Below are positions 1,488 to 51,490 of a DNA stretch of 53,686 nucleotides, piece by piece. The stretch is from IMG/VR virus record IMGVR_UViG_3300014491_000004, positions 1 to 53,686 of that record; one strand, given 5' to 3'. The stretch's first letter is position 1. Each line of letters begins with the position of its first letter. The position numbers and the translations under genes are program-made. The DNA comes from a virus. The notes under the pieces are model-generated. The model had not been told where the DNA came from, did not search any database, and worked only from the letters and a program-made list of their open reading frames with translations.

Positions 1488-4400
1488 TTAAATCTCATTG
1501 GTCCCTGCAATTTGTGTTAATTTTTCTTCCTCTGCCCCTATTAATTCTTTGAATGGATCGGATGCGACTTGTGTTTGTGGTAAAACTTTGCTGTTGGATG
1601 CCCCTTTTTGGTGATCCGCACGGCTGGAGTTCTTGATGTTATTTTGGGGGAAATTGTTCTCCGTGTCACCCGTGTAATCCGGGGAACTTGGCGTATTTCC
1701 GTGCGCGTCGTACCCATCATCTTCCGGATGCGGCACAGGCGATCCTTGGTACGCCGGGTTCGGGTACCACACATCACGGTCAGAAAGAATCCAAGCCTGA
1801 TCCGGTCGTTCTAGCCCCATTTGGCGGGCATATTCGCGATCCGAATCTCCTTCCGTGGACGGGAAGCTCTGTCTTTCTTCCATCATTGCATTGTATTCAT
1901 TCTCAGACGCAGCTAATTTTTTTTCTTCTGATCCTATTAATTCTAATTGAGCATCTTCTGCGCTCATATGATACTTGGCGTTTTGAAGCTCGGGCTCAAT
2001 AGTTTTTTTACGCATTGCTCCATCATTTTCTTGACCCGGCATAATTGCCATAGCTGCTCCTGGCTGCTGCGGAACTGGCGCTGGTTGAGCTATGCTTTGA
2101 TTTTGCACAACATTGGGGCTTACCGTAGGAGCTACGGGATTTTGCGCGGGGTTCTGTGCTGGGTTTTGTACAGCATTGGGGTTTGCTGGAGCTACAACCA
2201 CGGGAGCTGCGGCTTGTTTCACTGGTTGAACAAGTTCACCTAAAGCTTGTTTTGCTGCATCCAAATCATCTGTAGTGAGACTAATTTGAGGTTTCCCTTG
2301 TTTTACCCCCGTGGTTCTGGTCCATACACCATATCGAGGTATAAAATATTCTTCTTTTTTCATGCCGATAGTATAGGAAAGAGGCTTTCCAAAATCTGTA
2401 ACAAAACCTTTTTCATTTTGGAATACAACATTTATTCCTGCTTGTTTCACTTCAGCCTTAGCTGTAATTGGACCTCTTCGCTCACGAACAAACGCTCTCT
2501 CCTGTAATTGGAGTTCATGCTCAATTGCATCATCGGTACTCTGATATGGGATTTCTTCTTCGTAGTCTTTTTTAAACCACATTTTCTTTTGTAACCACCA
2601 AGATGGTCCATGATGTTCATTATCTTCCTGCCAGTCATGCATGATGAGATAGCGTTCTTTCGCTTCTTCACTCATTTGAGGAATGCTATCTGGGTCAATG
2701 TCCAAATCTTCAGGGATACCAGCTATCTTACGTTTACTGCCTCTAATCTTCATCTGCTGGAGAAAATTTTTATCATCAGTATCGGGATTCCATTCGGGTT
2801 CTGAGGTTAATGCTTCAGGCATTTTATTATAGGAACATCTAGGAGAATGCCCAAGACTCCCCATAGGCATAGCAGCTCCGCATTCAAAACACCAATAGCT
2901 ATCATACCCACAATCCGGGCAGAAAAATTTCACACCACTCGCTGTTGACTCATTCATGACCAAATCTTCCGTCATATTAGGACTATTACAATTAGGGCAA
3001 TTAGATTGTTCTTCCATGTCAATAGACGCTGCTACAGACATCGCATCATCTTGAGCAACCCCTGGAGGTGCGTTTACAAGGCGAGGTTGAATACCAGGGT
3101 TCCTGGGAGCTAAGTACGGAGCATTAGGGCTATGGGGACCTGGAGTAGAATCCGGAGCATCCGGTACAGCCATAGGTTGTGAATTATTTCCAGGGGTTGG
3201 GGGAAGATTGGGATTCTGGGCTTTCTTTCTCATGCCTATTTCTTCAATATGACGAAAGTTGGGGCTAATTCTCCAGCGTGGCTGTCCCGTTTCGTCTGTA
3301 GCGACCATTCCGCTTTCTCCATTCGATACTTCAGGTCCGTAGTCTTCAAACATTTGGTCGCTTATAGCTTCAGCTACCCGAATCATATCTTCTGGTGTGC
3401 CATCATAATTTTCGCTGATAAAACCAAGTCTGTGGCTATTGAAATCTCGAATTTCTCTGACTACTCGATTCGCTCTATTGCCGCCTTTAGTTATTTCCCC
3501 AGCACCTTCTTTATACGCATGAGGCAATCTGCCAGTGTCGCCTGGAGTAATATCGGGACGTAATTGTTGCAGGGGCTCAGTGGCTTCTTTAAATTCACCC
3601 TCATTCTCTTTAGGAATTTCATGAATGTTATTTTTACCACACATCGGACATGTGGTTAAGCGAATATCATATTTTTTATCATACCATTTCCAATCACAAT
3701 CATCGCAGTGCATTCTTATTGTGTATTGCCATTCGGATGCTTTTTTAGCTCCTTGAACCCCCATTCCACGCAAAAATTGAGTGTCGTAAATTTTCTCTGC
3801 GTCATCAACTAACGGCTGTGTGGCATCATCAATTTCATTTTTGGTGGTGTAATCATCTTCAAAAACTTCGGGGTAAAAATCGATAAGTTCTTGCATAGTA
3901 CTAGGGTCGCCGCTACCCTCATTTTCGTATGCTTCTACTGCTTGACGCAGATTCTGATATCCATCCGTAGTAAGTGGGTTCTCCAAAAATTCTCCACATT
4001 TGCCACAGTAATCTGGAAAATCAGATTCACTTACAGAAAAGGGACCTTGAGGCAGTTTTTCTGGATCATTTTCTAAAGCTGGAGCAATCCCCGCCGCGGA
4101 CGCTGCTACACCATTTGTTTCAAGATAATGTTTTAATTCCTTAGCACAATTTGTGCAGTAAAGATCCCCTTCATACATATAAACTAGCTTACCTGGATTA
4201 TAAGCCGTTTTTTCCATGGCAAATCTAGCTTCTACAGATGCTATTTTAGGATCAAATAAATTTTGCTGCTCATTAGAGGAGGCTAAATAGGCTGGTTCAG
4301 CAAATTCTCTAGGGCGTAATTTCTCTCTATTTGTAAAATGAAAAGCGTGCTCAGCAATCCACTGGTCATCGGTGATAAGAGGTACTGTAGGGTGAGAATG

Positions 4401-9728: not shown

Positions 9729-12700
9729 TTAAACCTCTTCAAACAACTCTCTTTGTACCGGGGGAAACGCATCCCGCAATAGTTGGGCGTACTCTATTTC
9801 TCCCAAATAAGAGTCATCCCACTTAAGCTTTGGATCCTTCCAATTATCATCATCCCAATGAATTACGTAATGGATTACTCCTCTGGTATCCCTATATACT
9901 TTCACAACTGTACCTTTATAAATCTTTTCCCTATTCCATTCATCTGGTTGATATACAATACGCTCTCCCTGCACCCATTTTCGCTTAGTTGCTGCTTCTT
10001 TAAATAGTTCACTTTGTTGCGGTGTAATTTTATCCATTATCTCCTTATCTGCCTCTTCCGCTATATCGCTACTACCGTTCATCCACTCTTTAGGATTACG
10101 CCAACGAATTACGTAATGTCTTTCCCCGGTATTTTTATCTCTGTAACGACCTATAACTACGCCATTCCAAACGTTTGGATCAAAAATTCCTTTATACCGG
10201 ACATGTTCCCCTATCCTCCATTTCCACCCCGATGCATCTTTGAATATATTTATTTGGGCTAAGTCTAAACTATGTTCCGGTGTCTTAGTTTTATACTTAT
10301 CCCCATGATATTTGATTTTACCATTTCCCCAGTCTAACCAGCCGTCCCACTCAATTATATAAATCTTTTCCCCAGGGTAAAAAAATCCTTCTTGGCGCAT
10401 TTGAGTATATTTTTTTTGTACCCTACCCAAATCCCCGTAATGTGTATGTATTACCCTATCCCCAATTGCATACTTAAATCCAGCGGATGATTTCTCAAAG
10501 GGCAGTTCTTCCTGCGTTGATCTTAACCATTTTTCTAGAATAGCGAATGATGTAGAATTTACCAACTTACCGTCAAAATCCATCCTACGAGTGTCCCATG
10601 TAATGTTATAGTAATTACTCTCCTTGCCCCGCAGTCTAAAGGTTACTGTACCCCTTCTGTTAAGCCCTTGAACTACATCTTGAACTTCATCCCCCACTTG
10701 AAATTTGTAAGCTCGGGCACTGGTTTTTTCTTCGTCAAACATCTGCATCTGCTGAGGGTGAGGGCGTAAGTCCCCTTCCGATACTTTATTACGCTTTGAA
10801 GCCTGGTGAGGATTTTCATCAAACAAATCTAATTGCATGGGGCGCAAACTTTTTTCCATTGCACGCTGTTCTACTGGTTTTTCCATACCCAAACGACCTA
10901 GTTTGGCATCCCAAAGGACTATATATTGATATCCGCGTTGAAAGATAAGTTTTTTTATAGTTCCAAAAAATAAAATATGTGGTAATAAATGGTTATACCA
11001 GCGAACTCTATCCCCCACTTTAAACTTATGACGCCTGGAGGCTTGTACCCTACCCGATTCTTCGTCAAACAAGTCTAACTGCACGGAGCGTAAATTTACT
11101 TCCTTTGCTGGCAAACTAAAAGGTTTGGTACAGGAATCATCGTTTGGTATCGCGTCCCACAAAACTTCGTATTCATACCTACCTTTGTGATTGCGTTTTG
11201 TTATAGTTCCTATACATATGCTACCTAGCATATGTCTAACTCTATCCCCTACTCTGAATTTGAACTTAGCGGTAGCGGTTTTAAACAAACTCTGCTGAGC
11301 TGGCATCAAAGTACGATCTAATTCCCAAGCCGTATAATAATGTTCAAGAGCACCTGTGACTACATTTGTCCAGTACCATCGCACTCTGTACCAAATATCC
11401 CTAGCATCAATATCAAGCTCTTCTACTTCCCCAGATAGCAATTGATCATCTGAAAAGTATTTTATGACCTTGTCTCCTTTACGGAATCTATGTTTTGTGG
11501 AGCCTTCCTTGAATAATTCTTGCTGAGCCGGATTTAGTCTATCTTCAACAATCCAACCTTCATAAAATTCTGGTTCTGTCCAGGTTACAAGGCATAGTAC
11601 CTGTGCTTCCCCGGAACCCCACCTTTTTCCCCATCGAATTTCTTTTATCTCACCTGGTATAACACATTGTTTAGAAAATTTACTAATAGCAAGTAGGGGA
11701 TATTTTCTTACAACATAATCCCCTACTCGAAATTTCCATTTCGTAGAACTTTCCTTGAACAGATCTTGCTGCAACGGTTTTATCTCGTTTTCCCGCCAAG
11801 CGTTGGTTCCTCCCCTTCTATCATCATAAGGATCTCGCCATTTGACTACATATAGCAAGGAGGAAACCTCTTTTGACCATCTGCAACTTAATATTTCCCC
11901 TATAGCATCAACATTTGAACTCCAGCTGTTTGAGCCCCTAGATAATAGCCAGTCAGGTACATTAACTATAACTTTATCCCCCTTTTTAAATTTTTGTCTT
12001 GTGGATGAGAGTCGCTGACCTTTCCATCCCTTACCTTTCATCTCATCTGGATCTTCATCCACATCATAAGGAAGTCCTTTGTGGAGATGAGGCTTACCCT
12101 CTTCATGTAGCTGTTCTATCTTCGTTTCTTCTTGTTGTGTTAAGTCTTGAATCGCTTCCACTTCTTCATCTTCGGGGGACATCTTTTCATAGTGCTCCGG
12201 TAGGCGCATCCAAGCAGGTGTAGTTTCTTCCTCTTCTTCCAAAGATACAGGCTCTGTGGCCGGTTGATCCCGCTGAATTTCGTCTTCTTGATGCTCGTTT
12301 CCTTTTTCTTCTAGCTCCTTTTCATGGAGTAATCTAGTTTCTTCTTCATCTTGCAGCTTCTGAAGCAGACGATCCTTGACCTTTTTATCTTTAGTATCGT
12401 GAATCTTTTCTAGTTCTCTCTTTTCCTTCATCTCCTTCTGCTTCTCTTGGAGTTCTTGAGGAATTTTTTCTACCCTATCTTTCTTGTTACGGATTTCACG
12501 CTCACGCAAAATCTTTACAATATTATGCTGCACCGAGGGCAGGATCCTCTCGAACACACAATGAATATGTTTGCAGATTACATAGTTGCCCCTCAAATCC
12601 AGACGCTCTTTTGGAGCTTGAAGCAAGGGGCGAGTTGGAGGGAGTAATCCATCTCGCTGATGAAGGTTCCATTGCGCTCCCCACATTAAAAATGCTGGAC

Positions 12701-13604
12701 AGCTGCAATTGCATTTAACATCTAAGTCATTTGCCCGTTGACTATCTGCTATTTTTGTAACATCAAACTGCACTCTAACATCGTGACCCGCAGGATCGCT
12801 ATCTTCCTTGTTACACTTGACATTGTAATGGAGAGATAAAGTCTTGGGGTTAGAATCAATTAAAGTAGGAGTACAACCAGGACGATATTTTTTTGAGAAT
12901 TGGTTTGTCTGTCTTACTATATCAGGAAGAGATATGGCTGTTTTCATCATATCTTGACTAGCCCTGGGGTTAAACAAGTTACGCTGTTGTGCAAGTGGGA
13001 TTAACACCGAGGAATATGATATATTGTTCTCATTCAATTTATCCCATTTAACTTCTACTACAAGCTCGGGCCGATTTTTTACTTTTCTTAAAATTCCTGT
13101 TATAGTACCTTCTTGAGCATAGTCGTAAACCCAACACACTCTTGTACCCACGGCAAAAGTCTCCCGCAAAGCTCTTTCCTCTTTACCTATAGCGGCTGAT
13201 TTATCAAATAATTCTCCTTGAGGTTCTACAGGAACTAGGTAATTGGGCGAATACCAGTCGAGACCAAACTTTTTTTCCGTCCAGGCAGAATAGTCCCAAA
13301 TAACCCCAACTTCCATTGTTTTATCTCTATTATTATATTGAAGCTCCTTTACCGTACCCAGAAAATCATATGTTTTCCCAGAAGTATCATTAATATGAAT
13401 AAACCTCTTTACTTTAGTACCGGGAGCAAATTTTTGACGAAAAGCTCTTTCCTCTTTACCCATAGCTGCGGTTTTTGGATCCTCGAATATTTCCCCCGTA
13501 GCAAATTTATCCCTTAACTCAGCTTGCTTTTCTCGGTGCTCTATGTGGCGTAGGGCAGCGGTGAGCGGGATTGTGATGTATTTGGAAGCATCGACCATGG
13601 ACAA
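9729..13604 (-). CDS. Giant tandem SH3-like-module protein with a QxxLF peptide after each module
   Basis: A 1291-aa protein of unknown family. Two modules (residues 48-133, 137-211) are followed by a SWIM-like zinc motif (CNCSCP at 298-303 with CKH at 344-346), a charged coiled coil (365-500) and nine further modules up to the C-terminus. Each module has the pattern KF..GD.V....G.(V/I)......V.W, as in KOW/Tudor/SH3-like barrels. Each ends in a Q-rich peptide: QGELF 129, QRNLF 207, QQDLF 612, QQELF 694, QQSLF 770, QLDLF 842, QLDLF 924, QMQMF 952, QEELPF 1031, QINIF 1117, QSELF 1197, QRELF 1284. QLDLF and QxxLxF are the known bacterial beta-clamp-binding pentamer and hexamer consensus. The start may be TTG 13604 (GAGGG at good spacing) or ATG 13598. 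Confidence 0.7.
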   Translation of the reverse strand: MSMVDASKYITIPLTAALRHIEHREKQAELRDKFATGEIFEDPKTAAMGKEERAFRQKFAPGTKVKRFIHINDTSGKTYDFLGTVKELQYNNRDKTMEVGVIWDYSAWTEKKFGLDWYSPNYLVPVEPQGELFDKSAAIGKEERALRETFAVGTRVCWVYDYAQEGTITGILRKVKNRPELVVEVKWDKLNENNISYSSVLIPLAQQRNLFNPRASQDMMKTAISLPDIVRQTNQFSKKYRPGCTPTLIDSNPKTLSLHYNVKCNKEDSDPAGHDVRVQFDVTKIADSQRANDLDVKCNCSCPAFLMWGAQWNLHQRDGLLPPTRPLLQAPKERLDLRGNYVICKHIHCVFERILPSVQHNIVKILREREIRNKKDRVEKIPQELQEKQKEMKEKRELEKIHDTKDKKVKDRLLQKLQDEEETRLLHEKELEEKGNEHQEDEIQRDQPATEPVSLEEEEETTPAWMRLPEHYEKMSPEDEEVEAIQDLTQQEETKIEQLHEEGKPHLHKGLPYDVDEDPDEMKGKGWKGQRLSSTRQKFKKGDKVIVNVPDWLLSRGSNSWSSNVDAIGEILSCRWSKEVSSLLYVVKWRDPYDDRRGGTNAWRENEIKPLQQDLFKESSTKWKFRVGDYVVRKYPLLAISKFSKQCVIPGEIKEIRWGKRWGSGEAQVLCLVTWTEPEFYEGWIVEDRLNPAQQELFKEGSTKHRFRKGDKVIKYFSDDQLLSGEVEELDIDARDIWYRVRWYWTNVVTGALEHYYTAWELDRTLMPAQQSLFKTATAKFKFRVGDRVRHMLGSICIGTITKRNHKGRYEYEVLWDAIPNDDSCTKPFSLPAKEVNLRSVQLDLFDEESGRVQASRRHKFKVGDRVRWYNHLLPHILFFGTIKKLIFQRGYQYIVLWDAKLGRLGMEKPVEQRAMEKSLRPMQLDLFDENPHQASKRNKVSEGDLRPHPQQMQMFDEEKTSARAYKFQVGDEVQDVVQGLNRRGTVTFRLRGKESNYYNITWDTRRMDFDGKLVNSTSFAILEKWLRSTQEELPFEKSSAGFKYAIGDRVIHTHYGDLGRVQKKYTQMRQEGFFYPGEKIYIIEWDGWLDWGNGKIKYHGDKYKTKTPEHSLDLAQINIFKDASGWKWRIGEHVRYKGIFDPNVWNGVVIGRYRDKNTGERHYVIRWRNPKEWMNGSSDIAEEADKEIMDKITPQQSELFKEAATKRKWVQGERIVYQPDEWNREKIYKGTVVKVYRDTRGVIHYVIHWDDDNWKDPKLKWDDSYLGEIEYAQLLRDAFPPVQRELFEEV

Positions 13605-13989: not shown

Positions 13990-14454
13990 TCATATAGTTT
14001 TGTCTAAGCCCATTCTACGCCTAAATTCCGGATCATCGGTAGAACTTTCCTTGGGAACAGCTTTTCCTCGTTTGACAGATGGGGTAAATTCTTCTTCAGC
14101 AAAGCCTTGTTTCTTGACGGGGGGACTGCCTTGGGGACTGCCTTGGGGACTGCCTTGGGGACTGCCTTGGGGACTGCCTTGGAGTTTAGCGATAGGCTCT
14201 GATGATGTTTTAGGGGCTTTAGGGACGACTTTAGGTGCAGATGGGGCTTGGACTACTTCTTGAATAAATTCGCTCTTTACAAGGGCTGCTAAGCCCAATT
14301 GAGTCTGTTTTACAGCTTTTATAATCTCCCCATTTCGATATACAGTAAGCCGGTTAGCGTTTCCAATATCATGAACCAGAATATCTCCTACTTTAACGAA
14401 AAATCCAAAATCGGCAAAGTGGATTGGGGACTTAACTAGATAATTTTTTTGCAT
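13990..14454 (-). CDS. Hypothetical protein with five GSPQ repeats
   Basis: A 154-aa protein. Residues 1-70 are ordered: FFVKVGDILVHDIGNANRL and VYRNGEIIKAVKQTQLG suggest a small barrel, distantly like the SH3-type modules of the neighbouring 1291-aa protein. A Pro/Ala-rich linker and five tandem QGSP units (DNA repeat 14121-14180) follow, then a basic tail ending FRRRMGLDKTI. It probably belongs to the virion set, with the repeat acting as a flexible spacer. Function unknown. Confidence 0.55.
   Translation of the reverse strand: MQKNYLVKSPIHFADFGFFVKVGDILVHDIGNANRLTVYRNGEIIKAVKQTQLGLAALVKSEFIQEVVQAPSAPKVVPKAPKTSSEPIAKLQGSPQGSPQGSPQGSPQGSPPVKKQGFAEEEFTPSVKRGKAVPKESSTDDPEFRRRMGLDKTI
14121..14180. 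repeat. Five perfect tandem copies of a 12-bp unit
   Basis: The unit ggggactgcctt is repeated without error at 14121, 14133, 14145, 14157 and 14169. On the minus strand it encodes a four-residue Gln-Gly-Ser-Pro repeat in frame. Perfect identity points to recent slippage, so copy number is likely to vary between isolates. Confidence 0.95.
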
Positions 14455-17635: not shown

Positions 17636-17671
17636 AAAGATAAGCAGTTGAAAATAAGTAGTTTAGTTCTC
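17633..17671. repeat. 39-bp direct repeat, copy 2 (3' end of the capsid gene)
   Basis: Perfect copy of 16294-16332. Here it spans the last codons of the capsid gene, its stop and the start of the terminator. Confidence 0.95.
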
Positions 17672-18622
17672 GCCTGTGTTGGCGGTTGCAACGAAGCGAC
17701 CGTTAACAGTAAGTCTCTGGACTCCGCTCGGATTAAAAATGAGGAAGCCAAGATTCTCAAAAATAGAGAACCCGATTTGACGTAAGTCAGGTCTATCTGC
17801 ACTCATGACCGTTAGCGGAATTCTTTCGGGAATGACTCCGAGGAATTCAGCATCGGCCAAAATGTAAATGCAGCCATAACCTACTTTACGAGATTGGAGA
17901 AGAGTTGCACCCCACAAATATCCCATGACCCCAGTCTTTAAAAGCTTACGCTGAGTTTCACGGTCGATGTTTTGTTGAGTCCACTTCAACAAATCCGTAT
18001 AATCACGCGGATTGAAGAAGCAGAAAGCTACAGACAAATCATGACGCTGCACTTGACCAAAGCCGTCTGCCATTGAGTTGAGGTCAATAGGAGCGTTGAT
18101 CTGAATGTCCGGGTTATAAACCGGGTCGTTAGCAGCATGCGTTGCCGCAGCGTTAGCGACTGCATCGAAGAGCGAAAAAACGTACGAGTCTTCTTGCGCA
18201 CCAACTTCAGCTTTCGCCAAGTTGAGTGAACGAGCGACGAGATCGAATCTGCGTTCCTTGATTTGGGTAATAGGAATCATTGGGTTCGACACAATTTCAA
18301 ATGTGGGAACCGTGACACGCTTTGGTTTAGTAACGCGGACAATATCTCCGCCTTCTTCACCCACAACGAATGCTTCAACAAAGGACGAACCAGGTGTTGA
18401 ACCAACCGTCATAGCTGCGGTGTCAAATTCTTTATCGTAGATCGGCAGTGCGCCGTCCGGTAGAGTTTCGACCATCAATGCTTTACGAGCGATGGACATA
18501 TAATCTCTACGACGACGAAGGGAAGGTCCCAACGACGCCGCTAGTTTTTGTCTGCCACCGGCTGTCTTGAGCAGTTGCCCAAGCATTGCGGTCTGTTGCT
18601 GAGTACGTGAAAGGTTTGCCAT
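17663..18622 (-). CDS. Major capsid protein, HK97 fold
   Basis: A 319-aa protein. The N-terminal 50 residues are helical and basic (LKTAGGRQKLAASLGPSLRRRRDY). Residues about 60-130 fit an E-loop and P-domain start. The C-terminal third, YILADAEFLGVIPERIPLTVM followed by FSIFENLGFLIFNPSGVQRL, matches the A-domain/P-domain end typical of HK97-type capsid proteins of large myoviruses. The gene follows scaffold, protease and a decoration-type gene, the usual head-gene order, has an AGGAGAGG ribosome site and ends at a strong terminator. No cleaved delta domain is obvious, so a separate scaffold (20608-22872) may direct assembly. Confidence 0.8.
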   Translation of the reverse strand: MANLSRTQQQTAMLGQLLKTAGGRQKLAASLGPSLRRRRDYMSIARKALMVETLPDGALPIYDKEFDTAAMTVGSTPGSSFVEAFVVGEEGGDIVRVTKPKRVTVPTFEIVSNPMIPITQIKERRFDLVARSLNLAKAEVGAQEDSYVFSLFDAVANAAATHAANDPVYNPDIQINAPIDLNSMADGFGQVQRHDLSVAFCFFNPRDYTDLLKWTQQNIDRETQRKLLKTGVMGYLWGATLLQSRKVGYGCIYILADAEFLGVIPERIPLTVMSADRPDLRQIGFSIFENLGFLIFNPSGVQRLTVNGRFVATANTGEN

Positions 18623-22917: not shown

Positions 22918-23832
22918 CTAGCGCCGTAACCCCCCTTTGATGTCATTTTCAAGCAAAAATTCACAGATGTCCGACCGGTCAGAAGCTGCTTTTGCAAACG
23001 CAGCTGTCTTAGCCGCAGTCTGTGTATATGGGGTTTTTGGTCCTTCCCACGATTCAGCGACTATATTTCGTTTCACCGCGCCAGGAAAAGCTGGAGTTGC
23101 TACCCAACTGGCTTCTACAAATTTTACTCCGCCATTAGGCATCGTTTTATGCCCGCAAAGTTCCGCTATTCTACGAGGGATCCCGTTATCGTCGGCCAGA
23201 AAGGTCCCTTTTTGATATTGTAAATGGGAACAGTAGGTACTAGCATCAGTTACATGCGCACCGCAGTAAGAACAAATAACTAAGTCTGTAACACATCCCA
23301 TGGAGAGATAACGCACGTTGCCGTCTCGAATGTCGCTCACCAGCTTCTCGTGAGTGACATCAGTCGCTACGAGGATGTCACAGAAATAAACCCAGATGCC
23401 GCCCGCGATATTGATCTTACGCAAGACTTGACTGAGGATATGCCCTTTTGCATATTTCGAATTCTGGAAATGCTCAACGAAGTTGAACGCGCCTACGAAA
23501 GATGGTGCAGAAAGTTTCAGTACTTCGTTCGTCCACGCGTCATCGTTATTATTCACCAAATGACTTGTCTCGGGCTTGATGAAATAGTCGAATGGTTCTT
23601 CTTCAGTCATCACTGATGCCATGATCGTGCAATGGCTAAGCAAGTAATTTGAGGACTTTGCAATTTTTTGCGCGGACGCGGTTTTGCAGAACGGATGATC
23701 CCCGTCAATGTGGCATCCACGAAATGCTCGGCTGCCGTACATTTTTTCCCAATCACCGGGTTTTAGAACGGGCTCTGTAACAGCCGCATTTGCAAATTTT
23801 TTAAAAGGCATCCTATTTTGTTTTGTCCACAC
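22918..23832 (-). CDS. Prohead-protease-like head maturation protein
   Basis: A 304-aa protein. Central residues about 130-190 read VGAFNFVEHFQNSKYAKGHIL...DILVATDVTHEKLVSDIRDGNVRYLSMGC. The Ser in LSMGC and an upstream His are plausible catalytic residues of a prohead serine protease. Next comes a zinc-ribbon-like insert, CSYCGAHVTDASTYCSHL, and GGVKFVEASWVATPAFPGA, a segment seen in phage prohead proteins that describe an altered capsid chaperone/protease. It lies just upstream of the scaffold gene, as expected. Start is uncertain: GTG 23832 or ATG 23811, the latter with AGG directly touching the ATG. Confidence 0.6.
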   Translation of the reverse strand: MWTKQNRMPFKKFANAAVTEPVLKPGDWEKMYGSRAFRGCHIDGDHPFCKTASAQKIAKSSNYLLSHCTIMASVMTEEEPFDYFIKPETSHLVNNNDDAWTNEVLKLSAPSFVGAFNFVEHFQNSKYAKGHILSQVLRKINIAGGIWVYFCDILVATDVTHEKLVSDIRDGNVRYLSMGCVTDLVICSYCGAHVTDASTYCSHLQYQKGTFLADDNGIPRRIAELCGHKTMPNGGVKFVEASWVATPAFPGAVKRNIVAESWEGPKTPYTQTAAKTAAFAKAASDRSDICEFLLENDIKGGLRR

Positions 23833-26900: not shown

Positions 26901-29900
26901 AAAATACCAGACTTTATTCTGAATAGCGTGATCTTGCAGTCCCAGGAAATGGCTTAAATTGTTTTGCAGGTCCGTCATGCTAGTGATGCTAGTGGGTATA
27001 TCCTCTTTAGTGATTGGATTTTTTCTGCTATACATACCCAAATCATTCTTGAAAATAGCTTTTGCCGCCGCACTCCGCAGGCTACCTCCCGCTAACCTGG
27101 ACTCCAAATGTAGCCGATACCAGCGCAAATACCATACAATACGATCAGCTTTCTTCAGGGTTTGCTTTGCCCAAGAAATTTCTTTTTTAATGATAGATTC
27201 CAATCCTCTGGACTCAGGTAAAGCAAGAACCTGTTGAAACATATCGAAGTAATTAGTAGCCAATACATCCCAGGAAGCCGTAATACTTAACCCCCCAGTC
27301 ATATTCATTTGGTCATTTTCTTCTTCATCCTCATTGGGATTATCAGTTGCCATAAATTCGTTTGGAGTGCCCCCAATGGGAGTACCTATACCGTAAGATT
27401 TAGTGGATGAATTTTTGGATAAAAAATCATCTGCATCTTTATAAGCGTACAAGGCTGAATTAAAAGCCGAATCTAAATGAGCAGCAGCGGAACGCACAGC
27501 CCATACAATGTCCATTTTGACTATTTTTTTGACCGTTTCTAACCAATCCAAACGACCCTGTACAGTCTCAAGAGCTTGTAAAGTTTTATCAAACATTGGG
27601 ACGCCGTTAAACAAGACTAAATTTGAATGAACTATATCGCGTAACATACCGGAATATTTTTTAATATAAGGAATCAATTTTACAGCCAGCTGTTGGGTAT
27701 TTTTTTCCCTTCCCAGCACGTCATCATTCCACAATTTACTGGACTTTACTCTCCAGCGTTTAAACAAAAGAGTAACCTCCAACGCGGTAGAAGTTTTTTG
27801 TGCTTGAGCTGTTTTACTAGTTTTAATTTCTGACACTTTCTCAGCAAACTTAGGAATCTGACCTCCTATTACGCTCTTTATTATTTCCGGGGTCACGGCG
27901 GTAACAGATGTGATTTGGTCGGGCTTGACCCAGCCTGTAGCTTTTAACCACTTACCTTTGGATGAAGCTTGACTCAAAGGATCCGCGGTATCTGTTTTCC
28001 ACTTCTCCCCCCCTGTGGTAAAGGCGACGATACTAATCTTACCTGTGCCCATGGATTGATTGAAATCCCAATCCATCTTACCTGCCCAACGCACAGCATC
28101 TGAAGGGTCAGAGAAAGCAAATATCTCCCCATTACCATAACGCTCTTTTGCTTCTTCTTTAACCCAGTTGGATGTTTGTAAGGGTATGATTCCCTTCTCA
28201 TGTATGGACGGAACCTTATCGGTATGGGTTACATGGAATAATTTTTTATTGGCTGCTGCGTTTAATCTTTTTCTTTCAGGAACTATCTCCCCTTCAATTG
28301 TGTTCGGACCCAGTGAAACATCAACATGGCGATTGGGTGATGGTTTCATTGAAGTATCTGTATCCAAGTCGTGGCTTGCCAAATAAGTTTTCAATGTATT
28401 GATGTCTTCCCCGCTATCTATATTTTCTCCCCACTGTCTAATTGTCCAACCGTCATCAAATACAGAAAGCACCATTTCTGGGTGTTTAACATTTCTATAT
28501 AAACTACCGGAAACATGATACCATTGACCTAAAGAACGCATATATTGATGAATGGGGGAGTTTTTCATACTCTGCGGGGATAAAATTTCTTGAGCTTTCT
28601 TTCTGGCTTTGATGCCCATTGAATTCAGGAAATCTTTATCCCGAGTATAAGGAGAATAATCTTTAGAGAAATCGGGCTTAATATCAGTACCTACTCCCGT
28701 ATCACGGAGAAATCCTTTTTCTTCTGGTGCCAAATAATCCTGTTTCTTGATATGCTCATCATCGCTATAATGGATGTATGTACGAGGTTCTCCAATATTG
28801 AAAACCACTCGTTCCAGCTTTTCTTTGGCTTCTTCTAAAGATTTGCATTCACCTACCTGCCTACCGACATTTAAAGCATCAGAAGCGTCATAATCTGTCC
28901 ATTCCCAAGTACCTTTATACTCGTCCAACTCCAAATGTCGATGATCGTATACCCCGCCCCATTCAATAAAGGCTTCGGCTTCTAGTGGACTGGACGCCGT
29001 TTTCTCTTGGGAAAATAATTCTCCTTGGGCATTCAGAGGAATCAAATCCGCGGCCCGGACATAGGATATCCTATTACCACCATCCCATCTAATTCCAATT
29101 ACAGCTGATCTGTTTCTTGGGTTGTATGGTCCTATGGATTCAATTGTACCCTCTGATTTTGATTTGTGATATCGAACTCTACCCCCTACTTTGAAGTTAT
29201 CTCTGATATATTTTTCATCCTTGCCTATCGCTGATGTTTTTTCTGAAGCAAATAATTCTCCTTGGTCATTCAAATGAATTAACTTATCAGAAGTTGGTAC
29301 AGCTACAATCCCTTTATCAGTTTGATAATCCCAAAGAACTGGAACAACTCCATTTTTAAATTTTGAATTATAATACCAATGGTCGCCGTTATCTACTACT
29401 GTTCCCTCATGCTTACCCATATAGGGTTTATAAAATACAACCCTATCCCCAGGTTTAAAACTTAAAAAATGTTTCTCAGCTTTACCCATAGCGGCTGTTT
29501 TATCATCCGAGAATAATTCTCCTTGGTCGTTCAAAGGTATTAAATTACTCATAAATGGGGCGATGCGACGAAGCTTACGCTGGGACTCTTCGTATCCGTT
29601 CCATGTCACTGGGACACGCCATTCCCTGAGCTTTCTATCAAAGTAGCCATTTTCCACCACTATACCTATAAGCGGCAAGCCCCTTATCAACTCATCATAA
29701 CATTTCGCACTTCCGCAGTATTTAACTCTACGCCCCGGATAGAAAGTATCTAACATGTATCTTTCTTGCTTACTTTTGGCCGCGGATTTGGAAGCTATAC
29801 TTCCATCAGCTGTAACAGCTCGTGGGTTTTCTGGGCAGGTACAGTCCTCACATATACAATCTTTTTTGGCTCGATCACAACCATTACACTGCGGTATATC

Positions 29901-32864: not shown

Positions 32865-32960
32865 AAGGTTTTCGACTGAAGCACTTCATGATGTAGTAGT
32901 CAATGGGAAACTGTAAAGGTTTTTCATTGGGGAGTGCTCCAGTTGAAAGTACGGGGAAAT

Positions 32961-32996
32961 ATGGGTGTTACCGAACCGGGAGGAGGTAGCACCCAT
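32961..32996 (+). terminator. Strong stem-loop between the DUF932 gene and the next cargo genes
   Basis: ATGGGTGTTACC pairs with GGTAGCACCCAT (one G-U pair) around a 12-base loop. There is no U-run, so it may be a Rho-dependent or processing element instead of a classical terminator. It lies 97 bases after the DUF932 stop and just before the next promoter. Confidence 0.45.
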
Positions 32997-33006
32997 AAAT
33001 TCCAAA

Positions 33007-33035
33007 TTGGTGTTTTGGTGTTTTTAGTGTATTAT
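33007..33035 (+). promoter_or_regulatory. Sigma70-like promoter of the 33054-34037 gene pair
   Basis: TTGGTG (33007-33012), a 17-bp spacer, then TATTAT (33030-33035). GGGAGGAACA and the ATG at 33054 follow closely. Confidence 0.6.
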
Positions 33036-33053
33036 AGTAGGGAGGAACAATTT

Positions 33054-33191
33054 ATGTGCTATATCGGAGTACCGCAGGAAACCTTGTTTGTCGAGCCGTT
33101 GGAATTGCCCTGTGCTATGCCCGGGCGTGAAATTGAACAGCCAAACCCTTTGTATGTGCCTGAACCGGAACCAATTGAGGTTCCTGCCTAA
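33054..33191 (+). CDS. Small Pro/Glu-rich protein, 45 aa
   Basis: Starts at ATG 33054, which is preceded by a strong GGGAGGA ribosome site and a promoter; an upstream in-frame start lacks both. The sequence begins MCYIGVPQETLFVEPLELP and ends in a run of Pro/Glu (VPEPEPIEVPA). No domain is recognised. The next gene starts directly after its stop codon, so the two are translationally coupled. Confidence 0.55.
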   Translation: MCYIGVPQETLFVEPLELPCAMPGREIEQPNPLYVPEPEPIEVPA

Positions 33192-38953: not shown

Positions 38954-41900
38954 TTATAACACAGTTACGACATTAAAAGTCACTACCAAATAAAGCAAAC
39001 AAAACATAGGTTTAAAAGTCACAGTAACATCAACCTCTGTCGGGTCATTTGGATTCTCTCTAACCTCAGGTGTATCATACGCTGTGATGATATAGTTGCT
39101 TACTTCAGATGTCAGACGAGCAATACATACATTGGTGATATCTGTGAGTAAACTATCCTTAATCTTGCGCCCAACGAATTGCTGTAAATCAGCTCTAAAC
39201 GCCTGCGCTGTATAGTCAGCAATTGTTGTTGATGTTGGTATCCTGGTCAAGTCGTTTGCTGGATTAGTGGTAAGATAATCTCTGATCTGTAAAGCTCCGT
39301 TGTTGTTCAAGAGTAATGTCAAACCATCACTTGCCATCAAATCCATTGTTGCATCGTCGTATGTAATCAGCAATCGACTAAATCCTACGAGGTTTTGTAG
39401 AACTAAGTTGGTTGCCACATCATTTGCTGGATTGCAGTTTGCACCAGCTAAAGCCGCCGCCATGAATGGTCCATCAACTAAATATTCATCCGCTTGGAAG
39501 GTTGTAGAGTTTGTTACCAATACACCGGCCGCAGCATTACCGATTGCAACTACACGCTGATTGAGCAGTGAACGGGCATTTGCGCGAGCTTGATTGGCTG
39601 TTGTGAATTGACTGTATCCCACGAATCCAATAGCTTCACCTTTATAACGTGCAGTTGCCTGTGAGGACAATTGATTGCTGAGGGCTTGGTGTACCACTGG
39701 GTCGTTGGACAAAGGCACTACAACATTCGCCTTGGTATTGAACCCTGGTAAATTACTTTTGAGTTGTTGCAAAGCAGCGATGTAATCAGCACTAGAAGCG
39801 AGATTGGTTCCCTGTTGAACAGGTACTTGAATGGCTCCGAAGGTCTGCATACCATTCAGCGCTGCTAGTTGAATACCTAAAGACAGACGATTGATCGTGC
39901 TTGGTTGTCCGTAAGCGGCGTAAGCATCTGAAGGATTGGTGTAAATTTTGCAAGCATAATCAGATGCTACCTTATTTGTTGTGTAACTTACATAATAGTA
40001 AGTTCCGATGGCGGGCTCGTTGCCGCTTCCTCTTACTGTGGTAACAATTACTGAATCTCCTGCTGTTGAACCAAATGTACTGGTTACTTTTGTTGTACAA
40101 CCAAAAATTGCCACTTCATTATTTGATTGACAAGGCGGTACACTAGGGGTACCAGTATAACGTTGTTGCAGAGAGGTAGCGGATGTTGGAGAACTCCCCG
40201 TAGCTGGGGTGTTTACATTGAATACCAGCCTGTCTCCCGGTACAAAGTTGTAACTCTGAGGCAGTGATGTAATTCCGTAAGCTACATGGTCTGCTGGATT
40301 GACGATTGTTACACGGAAACCTGTAACCAAATCAATATAGGTTTGGTCTAAGTACCCGATGTTACTTCCGCCCGTACCTGTGCCCGTGGCTAAATTAGAT
40401 GTAACTGTATAACTATGAGTCACAGGAGTTGTGGTAGCATTTTGTCCACCCGTCAAACTAGTTGCCGCGGTAACTCTGGGCGATCCACTGGGGGATAAAG
40501 CTGTGATTTGTCCACCATTTGTAGTTTCAGCGGATGGAAAATAACTAGCAATTTGAGCAGAAGTATTTAGAGTTCCGTTCCAAAAGGCATAGATTGTAAC
40601 TAAATTCCCCTGAACTACGACTGGTTGAGGATTAATTGTAGTTGTATCAATTGCAATTTGAACATCATTTCCCCCCACCCCTGTTGTGCTAGCAACAAAT
40701 GTCAAAGAGCCTGATGCGAATGGAATTGTAAGGGTGGCCTGTGATGCTCCAATCACAGTAGCATTGCCATCATTGTTGAAAGTAAGAGTTACTGTTTCAG
40801 TTGGAGACCCATTATCATCTACTGCGTCAGAGAAATTGAATGGGTACACGATCCCAGTAGCCGCGAATGCCCCTTCTTGAGTTACAGAAGATGATCCAGC
40901 ATTAAAAGTTACCAGGGGCATATAACGATTCAAGTTATCTTGAATTACATATGTGCCGAACCCGGAAAATCCTGGTTGCACTACAGTAAGAGTGTACTCT
41001 TGATCTTCTAAAGTATTGCGATAGTAAGATGCGTACACATTGGTGCCAGCTGGGGGAGGATTATATAAAGTTACTTGTTGAGCCAAGCCATTCACTGCGG
41101 CTACTGTAACAGCCCCACTCTGGAAAGCTACCAATGGATTTACGCCAACGTATACAGTTACCAAATTTGGATTATTAGTTGGTGTTGCATTTCCACTTCC
41201 AGTAGTTGGTGTATCCGGTAAAGTGAATACAGCATTTTTACCATTTACAGCGCCAGACAAAAGTCGGAGCCACACAACTTCATCGACCGAGGTTGTAAGA
41301 ACTTCCGCTGGACTGAACGGCGTATCACCTGTATTATCCGTACCCAACACAGTGCTGACATTATTACCCCAGTTTACCGTATTAGCTACAGGATTGCCCA
41401 ATCTGTCATAAGCTACACCCAAACTAAAATCAACATCAAGGTTGTATGTACTAGTGTTTGGACCTAAACCAATTTGAGTAATGCTGGCTACATTTGCGCT
41501 AGGGAGAAGATCATAAGTATTTTGCCAAGTATTGGTGTAATAAGTGAATGTAAGAGTCTGACCGTAAGCTACACTACTAGCAAGAGTTACAAGACCTTGA
41601 GCACCGTTAACTGCGGATACTGTAACTGGATTTCCGTTTACCATGGCGATTACATTTGTTGGAGTTGTGGTAACAATTCCACCATTTGTCCCATCTGTAA
41701 TTGGAATATTTTGTACTTGGAAGACTGTGTTACTGCCTTGACCCACACCGCCCGCGAATGGCGTTGCACCTGTTGATACTGTTAATTGAGCTGATGGGTC
41801 ACCAGTAATGGAACCAGAAGTTAAATACCCACCATCCAAAGTAGGAATATTTCCAAGGTTTACTAAATTGTAGAGAGATTGTAAGGTACGGATTCCACCA

Positions 41901-42601
41901 AAATATTGACCTGTGGGGCCACTAATATCAATTGTGATTGCATCGGTCCCCGCACCTATTACTGCTTGAGCGTCGGGTATATTCTTGCCGCTGTTAATAA
42001 ATTGAAGTGTAACTAAATTACCTGTAGCACCTGGTTTTGTTAAACTAAGAGTTATGGAACCTGTACCAGCGGGTGACCCACTTGGTCCACCAGCTACAGT
42101 TTGTACGGCGTATTGTGGTACTTGAAAAGTATCATTTTCTTGTTGGATATAAGTATCACCGCGTTTGAAATAGTATGAGATTGTTAAATCAGTACCAGCA
42201 GGGATGATATCTTGAGTTACAAATTGTCCGGTTGCTCCAACGAGTGAAATTACAGTGACAGGAACCACATTACCGTTGGAATAAACGGCTTGACATTGAA
42301 TTAAGGCTGGGTTATTTGTGGTAATACCTTTTCCAGAGCCATCTACCACTGGGTAAAATGTGGTTTGGAAACTTTGAGTCAACCCCGAAGCGCATTGATC
42401 GGAAATATTTTCATTCACTGATTGGTCATCTGCAACTGATGAAGACCCACGGAACAATTCCACGTTATTGAAGGTGAAAAATTGTTGACCTTCACCAATA
42501 AATACAGGAATTCTAACTGCTACATTAGCTGTTGCTGCTTGAGCAATGAACTGCTCAAATGTAAAAACTCCGGGTGCGGCATATGAACTAAACAAGGCCA
42601 T
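38954..42601 (-). CDS. Tail sheath protein, unusually large (1215 aa)
   Basis: The start MALFSSYAAPGVFTFEQF is a typical sheath N-terminus. The C-terminal 350 residues carry sheath hallmarks: QLAALNGMQTFGAIQVP, ADYIAALQQLKS, a long Ala-rich helix region, VGFSRLLITYDDATMDLM, LTRIPTSTTIADYTAQAFRADLQQFVGRK and the ending TVTFKPMFCLLYLVVTF that donates strands to neighbours. Between residues about 100 and 850 lie inserted Thr/Gly/Val-rich Ig-like beta domains with repeated GTLTFTYY..NT type strands. Most sheaths are roughly half this size or less, so the outer surface of this tail is probably heavily decorated. Directly upstream of the 148-aa tail gene. Confidence 0.85.
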   Translation of the reverse strand: MALFSSYAAPGVFTFEQFIAQAATANVAVRIPVFIGEGQQFFTFNNVELFRGSSSVADDQSVNENISDQCASGLTQSFQTTFYPVVDGSGKGITTNNPALIQCQAVYSNGNVVPVTVISLVGATGQFVTQDIIPAGTDLTISYYFKRGDTYIQQENDTFQVPQYAVQTVAGGPSGSPAGTGSITLSLTKPGATGNLVTLQFINSGKNIPDAQAVIGAGTDAITIDISGPTGQYFGGIRTLQSLYNLVNLGNIPTLDGGYLTSGSITGDPSAQLTVSTGATPFAGGVGQGSNTVFQVQNIPITDGTNGGIVTTTPTNVIAMVNGNPVTVSAVNGAQGLVTLASSVAYGQTLTFTYYTNTWQNTYDLLPSANVASITQIGLGPNTSTYNLDVDFSLGVAYDRLGNPVANTVNWGNNVSTVLGTDNTGDTPFSPAEVLTTSVDEVVWLRLLSGAVNGKNAVFTLPDTPTTGSGNATPTNNPNLVTVYVGVNPLVAFQSGAVTVAAVNGLAQQVTLYNPPPAGTNVYASYYRNTLEDQEYTLTVVQPGFSGFGTYVIQDNLNRYMPLVTFNAGSSSVTQEGAFAATGIVYPFNFSDAVDDNGSPTETVTLTFNNDGNATVIGASQATLTIPFASGSLTFVASTTGVGGNDVQIAIDTTTINPQPVVVQGNLVTIYAFWNGTLNTSAQIASYFPSAETTNGGQITALSPSGSPRVTAATSLTGGQNATTTPVTHSYTVTSNLATGTGTGGSNIGYLDQTYIDLVTGFRVTIVNPADHVAYGITSLPQSYNFVPGDRLVFNVNTPATGSSPTSATSLQQRYTGTPSVPPCQSNNEVAIFGCTTKVTSTFGSTAGDSVIVTTVRGSGNEPAIGTYYYVSYTTNKVASDYACKIYTNPSDAYAAYGQPSTINRLSLGIQLAALNGMQTFGAIQVPVQQGTNLASSADYIAALQQLKSNLPGFNTKANVVVPLSNDPVVHQALSNQLSSQATARYKGEAIGFVGYSQFTTANQARANARSLLNQRVVAIGNAAAGVLVTNSTTFQADEYLVDGPFMAAALAGANCNPANDVATNLVLQNLVGFSRLLITYDDATMDLMASDGLTLLLNNNGALQIRDYLTTNPANDLTRIPTSTTIADYTAQAFRADLQQFVGRKIKDSLLTDITNVCIARLTSEVSNYIITAYDTPEVRENPNDPTEVDVTVTFKPMFCLLYLVVTFNVVTVL

Positions 42602-50867: not shown

Positions 50868-50906
50868 GGACTGTCTCCTCTTTAATCGTTGGCATGGACT
50901 GTCTCC
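50851..50906. repeat. Perfect tandem duplication of 28 bp covering a start site
   Basis: 50851-50878 and 50879-50906 are identical. Each copy carries, on the minus strand, GGAG, then ATGCCAACGATTAAAGA. The downstream copy starts the metallopeptidase gene; the upstream copy encodes the last residues (ETVHAND) and stop of the Lar-MazG-like gene. Confidence 0.95.
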
Positions 50907-51490
50907 TCCGTCCCTGCGTTCACCCGCACATCACCAAATGTTCCGGTTTCTCCCGCGTATCGTGGTTTCGTCATTAACGATTCCACTTTGGCTGTAGCGG
51001 CTTGAACGATTTCTGGCAGATTATGCGGACTCAGAGCCAGCATCGTTATGAGCACATCCGCCGACTCATCGAGTGTGTCTCCCCGTTTTCCCCGAACCGC
51101 TTCCGCAAGTTCCGCAGACTCCAGATGCAGGTACGCGCTTCGATGTATCCAATGGGTTGACCACTCTCGATGCTTCATCATTTCCAGAATCCGAGTTCTT
51201 AAACACTGGCTCACTGTCTCACTCCTCCGCAAATCTGGGGTATCCCCTGCGCTCACCCGCTGATTCCATTCGCTTACAGCCGTGTCGATTGTCTTGTTGG
51301 CGATTTGCTGCACTTCGCATGACCCGCAGTGTACGAAGAAATCATCCTCTTCGCCTAAGTCGTCCAAGATCGGAGCGCCGCCGCAAAATGGGCACGGCAG
51401 TAGCGTTTTCTCAGCCGCGCAAACCTGACACGGGCCATCCGTATAGTTAGGCTTGTCGCACGTATGGTTATTTTTCACTGTCTCACTCAT
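50882..51490 (-). CDS. Lar-like zinc protein fused to a MazG-like domain
   Basis: A 202-aa protein. LLPCPFCGGAPILDDL...FFVHCGSCEVQQ...DTAVSEWNQR (about 30-78) is the Lar restriction-alleviation zinc-ribbon pattern. HLESAELAEAVRGKRGDTLDESADVLITML (about 120-150) is a MazG-like EExxE..ExxD metal-binding helix pair of nucleotide pyrophosphohydrolases. The linker SAGDTPDLRRSETVSQ repeats the translation start of the gene itself (MSETVKN), with ATG changed to AGG, so two separate genes appear to have fused. It may counter restriction and tune the nucleotide pool. Confidence 0.65.
   Translation of the reverse strand: MSETVKNNHTCDKPNYTDGPCQVCAAEKTLLPCPFCGGAPILDDLGEEDDFFVHCGSCEVQQIANKTIDTAVSEWNQRVSAGDTPDLRRSETVSQCLRTRILEMMKHREWSTHWIHRSAYLHLESAELAEAVRGKRGDTLDESADVLITMLALSPHNLPEIVQAATAKVESLMTKPRYAGETGTFGDVRVNAGTEETVHAND
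50901..50927 (-). repeat. Translation-initiation repeat, copy C
   Basis: Minus strand GCGGGTGAACGCAGGGACGG then AGGAGAC: similar to copies A (51475-51510) and B (51211-51260). It sits at the 3' end of the Lar-MazG-like gene, directly before the metallopeptidase start region. Confidence 0.7.
51211..51260 (-). repeat. Translation-initiation repeat, copy B (inside the fusion linker)
   Basis: Minus strand GCGGGTGAGCGCAGGGGATA ... GCGGAGGAGTGAGACAGTGA. Relative to copy A, the ATG before AGTGAGACAGTG has become AGG, so this internal site no longer has that start codon. A GTG in the same frame remains a possible weak start. Confidence 0.7.

Follow-up and report, generated by a model that had tools for sequence, protein, structure and literature searches.

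We analyzed a 53,686-nucleotide stretch of viral DNA (IMG/VR record IMGVR_UViG_3300014491_000004), which we call the window. This 53.7-kb window is a fragment of a jumbo myophage, with genes for a major head protein, a head maturation protease, and a tail sheath (Table 1). Downstream of the major head protein gene lies an open reading frame (ORF) for P0001, a protein with 11 SH3/Tudor-like modules and one collapsed module. Two modules lie before a conserved core and nine after it, with the collapsed one among the latter. P0001 matched no family in Pfam. The ORF as called begins with TTG, and the true start is probably an ATG two codons inside, because relatives share the same beginning, M..(Y/F)ITIPL. 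The modules of P0001 are followed by short QxxL(x)F peptides, which are probably docking sites for a sliding clamp of the DnaN type.

Modules and peptides of P0001

P0001 contains 12 peptides of the type Q-x-x-[LIM]-(x)-F: nine are strict QxxLF, and the others are QMQMF, QINIF, and the hexamer QEELPF. Eleven of the 12 come after an intact module; QMQMF comes after the remnant. A preliminary description of this DNA had proposed twelve QxxLF peptides, one per module. The number was right, but just nine are strict QxxLF and one follows a remnant. It had correctly noticed two exact copies of QLDLF and the hexamer in P0001 (which we see on the minus strand), three QGELF peptides after modules of another protein, P0002 (29013-29525), and one QQNLF in a third protein, P0003. 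P0002 was given as 2556 amino acids, and the ORF as called here has 2567. QGELF occurs four times in the window (in P0001 and P0002), and the two QLDLF copies are encoded by different synonymous codons.

In 2000 shuffles of P0001, strict QxxLF appeared 0.18 times on average and at most 3 times, as compared to 9 observed. If L, I, or M is allowed at position 4, then 11 are observed, versus a mean of 0.35 and a maximum of 4. Across all 16 peptides of the window, position 1 is always Gln, position 4 is L or M in 15 cases and I in one, and F is always found at position 5 or 6. An acidic residue lies within three positions after the F in 14 of the 16.

The remaining ORFs of the window (11,126 residues) contain one strict QxxLF. 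This is QETLF in an 85-amino-acid ORF (32934-33191), in a barrel-like context (FxxG...), and it is the only strict QxxLF outside of P0001-P0003. We took it to be due to chance, along with QDKLF in the coils of two related loci (L021 and L024) and QSKLF inside the apparent inteins of four others (L050-L053).

Table 1. Features of the window, with P0001 in gene order.
Feature	Position	Strand	Notes
P0001	9729..13604	-	1291-aa ORF: N-terminal modules, SWIM-like Cys/His core, coiled coil, module array
Module 1 (SH3/Tudor-like)	13224..13448	-	
Peptide QGELF	13206..13220	-	residue 129, after module 1
Module 2	12990..13175	-	
Peptide QRNLF	12972..12986	-	residue 207, after module 2
Conserved core with CxC...CKH	12477..12947	-	SWIM-like, by inspection; common to Tunturi_5 gp336 and 60 other loci
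Module 3	11772..12005	-	
Peptide QQDLF	11757..11771	-	residue 612, after module 3
Module 4	11526..11747	-	
Peptide QQELF	11511..11525	-	residue 694, after module 4
Module 5	11298..11501	-	
Peptide QQSLF	11283..11297	-	residue 770, after module 5
Module 6	11082..11273	-	modelled with AlphaFold2
Peptide QLDLF	11067..11081	-	residue 842, after module 6
Module 7	10836..11039	-	
Peptide QLDLF	10821..10835	-	residue 924, after module 7
Collapsed module remnant (QASKRNKVSEGDLRPHPQ)	10737..10805	-	terminal peptide QMQMF, residue 952, 10737-10751
Module 8	10515..10721	-	
Hexamer QEELPF	10497..10514	-	residue 1031, after module 8
Module 9	10257..10490	-	
Peptide QINIF	10242..10256	-	residue 1117, after module 9
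Module 10	10017..10235	-	
Peptide QSELF	10002..10016	-	residue 1197, after module 10
Module 11	9756..9992	-	
Peptide QRELF	9741..9755	-	residue 1284, after module 11; three residues short of C-terminus
P0002 module a	29529..29762	-	
P0002 peptide QGELF	29511..29525	-	after module a
P0002 module b	29268..29474	-	
P0002 peptide QGELF	29250..29264	-	after module b
P0002 module c	29031..29213	-	
P0002 peptide QGELF	29013..29027	-	after module c
P0003 peptide QQNLF	4254..4268	-	without module
Major head protein	17663..18622	-	phrog_2522, E = 9e-43; bait for finding related jumbo phages
Head maturation protease	22918..23832	-	phrog_18299, E = 1e-12
Tail sheath	38954-42601		

Conservation and predicted fold

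Searching IMG/VR with the major head protein gave numerous relatives, of which we kept 80 loci. The SWIM-like core also retrieved relatives, while full-length P0001, used as a query, retrieved no related loci. The nearest cultured relative is the Tunturiibacter phage Tunturi_5, whose head protein is 71% identical; it is a 309-kb phage with an acidobacterium as host (PMC11924767). Neither the core protein nor the head protein had matches in the genome contigs that we searched, so we have no cellular or host link.

Relatives of the core are encoded at 61 loci, and the homologue in Tunturi_5 is annotated as "tail protein." Most of these homologues (57/61) do not have the module array, and the phages that encode them have nearly the same major head protein. 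Homologues of P0001 that lack modules also lack the peptides. In Tunturi_5, the only cultured close relative, the core protein is present and the modules are absent, so it offers no direct model for the array. We found no modules in records of known phages.

To avoid circularity, we built a barrel-only profile from the window's modules alone and ran it on all other loci. It found modules that are followed by a peptide in G001, a 332-kb relative (six modules), in L020 (three, with weaker scores), and in the previously unused L005 (one with QPEMKF, and a second module that runs off the end of the contig). One module of L150 has EKAMF, in which E replaces Q, and a short unrelated ORF (L089) has a partial barrel-like match with no peptide. 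The preliminary description had reasoned that relatives with the module and random sequence at the peptide would speak against a binding role. In the relatives, the Q and F of the peptide are as strictly conserved as the core glycines of the barrel.

The 27 modules that we aligned come from five phages, and their identity to the first module is mostly 15-40%. The F is present in 27 of 27 modules, and position 4 is L, M, or I in 26. The Q is present in 25; of the other two, one (QSKMLF) has a Q that is shifted by a gap, and one has a true E. The two middle residues vary freely. The information content of the Q and F equals that of the barrel's glycines and tryptophan.

The module's fold was predicted for module 6 and its peptide with AlphaFold2, using a 27-row alignment. 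The blocks of the barrel had predicted local distance difference test (pLDDT) scores of 84-94, the block with QLDLF had 66, and the residues after it had 51. In this model, QLDLF begins as a short helical turn, outside of the strands. The predicted fold resembles HspQ, PWWP, chromo, and Tudor domains (the best match in PDB is HspQ, 5ycq, E = 2e-3). With the module profile, we obtained a match to MIB1 (Mib-Herc2 domain, 5e-5), over the barrel only (the best match spans profile positions 5-58). SH3-like, Tudor, Mib-Herc2, and HspQ barrels thus share the fold predicted for our modules, while the QxxLF tail lies outside the matched part.

Hexamers occur among the pentamers in relatives (QRRLQF, QPEMKF, QSKMLF, and QRRFQF), as they do in the window (QEELPF). 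Some peptides have no intact module: QQNLF in P0003, QKEMF in G001, and QMQMF on the collapsed module. Because of the one-residue insertions, the bare peptides, and QMQMF, we think that the kept element is the peptide and not the barrel's ending.

The module and peptide also seem to move together. In G001, a 1733-amino-acid protein has ART-PolyVal (E = 9e-28) and NUDIX domains, one module followed by QKSLF, and the bare QKEMF ahead of the ART domain. The core protein of L020 (the same contig as L203) has a module region with 43% identity to the one in this protein. The presence of the module and peptide in the core protein, in P0002, and in this relative's ART-PolyVal protein implies a cassette that moves between proteins. 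ART-domain polyvalent proteins are common in this phage group; the window has no match to PF18760 (ART-PolyVal). The literature predicts that proteins of the ART-PolyVal class are packaged and injected (PMC5512222).

Several other features caught our attention. A second recurrent peptide, D[DK]xFLxxMGIxGxKKA, appears in P0003 (residues 782 and 1119), in P0002 (999 and 2218), and at the C-terminus of the ORF at 13990-14454. It is possibly a maturation or docking signal. KTA and KKA tripeptides are frequent in the structural proteins. Among relatives, the core proteins of L036 (3936-6305), L050 (14696-17179), L038, and L051-L053 have, by inspection, an apparent intein at the cysteine motif. The core protein of L064 (12313-14088) has an N-terminal domain that by appearance resembles an ADP-ribosyltransferase (MYHGTSVRSWERHIPEGTLFLTS...). 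The window also encodes a Lar-like restriction alleviation protein (50882-51490; phrog_599, E = 6e-11).

A phage clamp and the polymerase tails

By reading G001, we first recognised a clamp-like protein of 349 amino acids (57478-58527; L115). It had matches in 8 of the 20 records searched, and homologues are encoded at L163, L166, and L169-L173. Its AlphaFold2 model (pLDDT 88) is similar to bacterial DnaN (Foldseek E = 5e-14, template modeling score about 0.66). The Pfam family for the N-terminal part of DnaN (PF00712) had no match in the relatives. In Tunturi_5, gp9 is annotated as a DNA polymerase processivity factor and gp24 as a clamp loader. The predicted fold confirms that related jumbo phages encode a diverged clamp of the DnaN fold, which the Pfam N-terminal clamp family misses.

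The family-A DNA polymerases of these phages have long tails beyond the catalytic domain. We searched 25 distinct tails for the pattern Q..[LM](.)[FLI], no further than 75 residues from where the tail starts. This clamp-type motif was present in 11 of the 25, whereas 5000 shuffles had a mean of 0.97 and a maximum of 6. (A smaller first test, with nine polymerases, gave 5 versus 1.14, P = 0.004.) The motifs include QAELPL, QGQLPL, QEALDF, QLTLDL, QASMF, QGTLNL, and QGELF (the last in L233 and L234), and they come just after a conserved RPxxxILGE stretch (L218-L249). Some of them also have a non-aliphatic residue at position 2 (G or E, in QGELF, QEALDF, and QGTLNL). Since the polymerases share the motif vocabulary of the window, including QGELF exactly, the phage's clamp is favored as the target of the peptides. 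Judging by sequence, the polymerase tails are the strongest independent sign that the window's peptides are clamp ligands.

What the peptides might bind

Our preferred explanation is that P0001 docks onto a DnaN-type sliding clamp in a multivalent manner, as an array in which each QxxL(x)F acts as a clamp-binding motif on its own bead. We give this a probability of roughly 0.68, and we infer that P0001 itself binds to the clamp. The published clamp motif is Q-aliphatic-x-[L/M]-(x)-[F/L]; its flanks are acidic, it binds with micromolar affinity, and neither length (five or six residues) has a clear cost (PMC11139829). Like the bacterial motif (QL[SD]LF, as in Pol III alpha, Pol II, Pol IV, MutS/L, and Hda), the peptides of P0001 have Q at position 1, L or M at position 4, and F at position 5 or 6. 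They also resemble it in alternating between pentamers and hexamers, in their predicted flexible location, in their acidic flank (in the window), and in the two exact copies of QLDLF. Unlike those proteins, P0001 is not a replication enzyme, and where they have one or two copies it has twelve, placed on barrel beads and mostly with a non-aliphatic position 2. The preliminary description had already proposed that the peptides were of the clamp type. This gains support from the alternation of 5-mers and 6-mers, from the bare peptides and the QMQMF on a collapsed module, from the phages' DnaN-fold clamp, and from the same motif in polymerase tails, but most of the peptides lack the strict aliphatic position 2. 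Overall, we consider a clamp to be the likelier partner of these peptides.

Some observations weigh against this explanation. Only 4 of the window's 16 peptides have an aliphatic residue at position 2 (L, L, M, and I; the others have G, Q, R, E, or S), while in the canonical motif this position is less restricted but usually aliphatic (PMC11139829). So, the individual peptides may bind a bacterial clamp with low affinity. The acidic flanks are weaker among the relatives. No clamp gene was seen in the window fragment, so we infer its phage's clamp from the relatives. When we compared the phage clamp to DnaN from E. coli with hhalign, the similarity was too weak to map the peptide pocket. More than half of the polymerase tails have no motif under the pattern we used, and the tails share descent, which the shuffle test ignores. 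For instance, L233 and L234 are nearly identical over the region, so their QGELF motifs are not two independent events. And because most relatives of P0001 have neither modules nor peptides, the array must be dispensable for the group.

If the peptides do not bind a clamp, they might be a structural element of the module family, either a closing strand or a conserved linker with no partner, as the preliminary description had offered as its alternative. The peptide does have a fixed place right after the last strand of every module, and one predicted strand ends just a residue or two ahead of it. However, the modelled barrel is complete without the peptide, and confidence drops at the peptide. 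The QxxLxF insertions, the bare peptides, and the peptide of the collapsed module do not fit with a strand, nor do the freely varying central residues or the matches to solved Mib-Herc2 and SH3-like domains, which span only the barrel. The model and the variants therefore argue against a strand or linker, which we consider improbable, and for a predicted flexible segment outside the barrel. It is similarly improbable that the peptide docks onto a virion partner or a neighboring module, for capsid docking or self-assembly. All of the carriers in the window are in the region of head and tail genes, and SH3-like folds frequently bind short peptides. But this would not explain why so few core homologues have the array when the major head proteins are nearly the same, or why polymerases have a clamp-style tail motif in phages without modules. 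Another idea is that the prohead protease cuts the beads apart at the peptides. A head maturation protease is encoded nearby, the peptides separate one bead from the next, and small residues are common after the F. However, the closely related phages that lack modules also lack the peptides, and aside from P0001-P0003, the structural ORFs of the window, including the head protein and the protease, have no QxxLF. Since the head protein and the protease lack the peptide, we rejected this idea as very improbable.

A different question is which clamp would be bound. A docking array would most likely target the phage's own clamp, with host DnaN as the second possibility. In a host-specific version, the protein would be packaged and injected, and would trap the host's clamps and stop its replication early. 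No known peptide binds DnaN more strongly than QLDLF (PMC11139829). The cassette is found in an ART-PolyVal protein, a class for which packaging and injection have been predicted (PMC5512222), and the unrelated toxins SocB and RipA, as well as gp168 of phage Twort, hit the clamp. On the other hand, these phages have their own clamp, and most of the peptides are non-aliphatic at position 2, like some of the phages' polymerase tails. Also, no proteomics places P0001 in virions (we found no virion proteomics for this phage group in the main text of the Tunturi paper, PMC11924767). A target that is specifically the host's DnaN seems unlikely to us. Nevertheless, the host clamp has to be taken seriously as a rival, since two of the peptides are the best-known ligand of DnaN and since these proteins, if injected, would meet the host's clamp first.

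Each ring of a dimeric clamp offers two pockets for peptides. Twelve weak peptides could hold several rings, or a single ring at high avidity; with weak single sites in many copies, P0001 would act by avidity. The most likely effect would be that late-region proteins are held on clamp-loaded, replicating phage DNA, or that clamps are collected. More tentatively, and at somewhat less than even odds, P0001 could be a clamp trap or carrier. As a virion or late protein, it would gather several sliding clamps at once, to pin head assembly to replicating phage DNA, to take clamps along into the next cell, or to strip them from the host.

Known systems offer partial parallels. Twort gp168, SocB, and RipA act on the clamp, as P0001 would. 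SocB uses an ordinary motif and the same pocket, while gp168 binds the DNA channel. P0001 itself is large, comes from the late region, and has many motifs; we saw no sequence relation between it and these proteins, though no search aimed at one was made. T4 gp33 and gp55 are late phage proteins in which a short motif docks onto the gp45 clamp and couples replication to another process, but the motif is different (LDFL, at the C-terminus), there is one per protein, and they are transcription factors. P0001 also resembles phage polyvalent proteins (ART-PolyVal, PF18760) in being large, multidomain, and from the late region, and a relative's ART-PolyVal and NUDIX protein shares the cassette, but P0001 has no recognised polyvalent domain such as ART-PolyVal. 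The 2017 description of polyvalent proteins mentions neither clamps nor SH3 domains (PMC5512222). We found no comparable array of clamp motifs in the literature, in a search that missed most subscription papers. As far as that search reached, this is a known motif in an unprecedented arrangement.

According to a review from 2024, it is not understood for the bacterial clamp what happens when one partner carries several binding motifs (PMC11139829). P0001, whose regular beads bear up to twelve motifs, would be a natural, ready-made system for testing clamp avidity. Our analysis also identified a clamp-docking vocabulary in the polymerases of soil jumbo phages, as well as a clamp of their own that is missed by Pfam's N-terminal family. 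If our explanation is correct, P0001 would connect the head-region proteins of these phages with the replication machinery.

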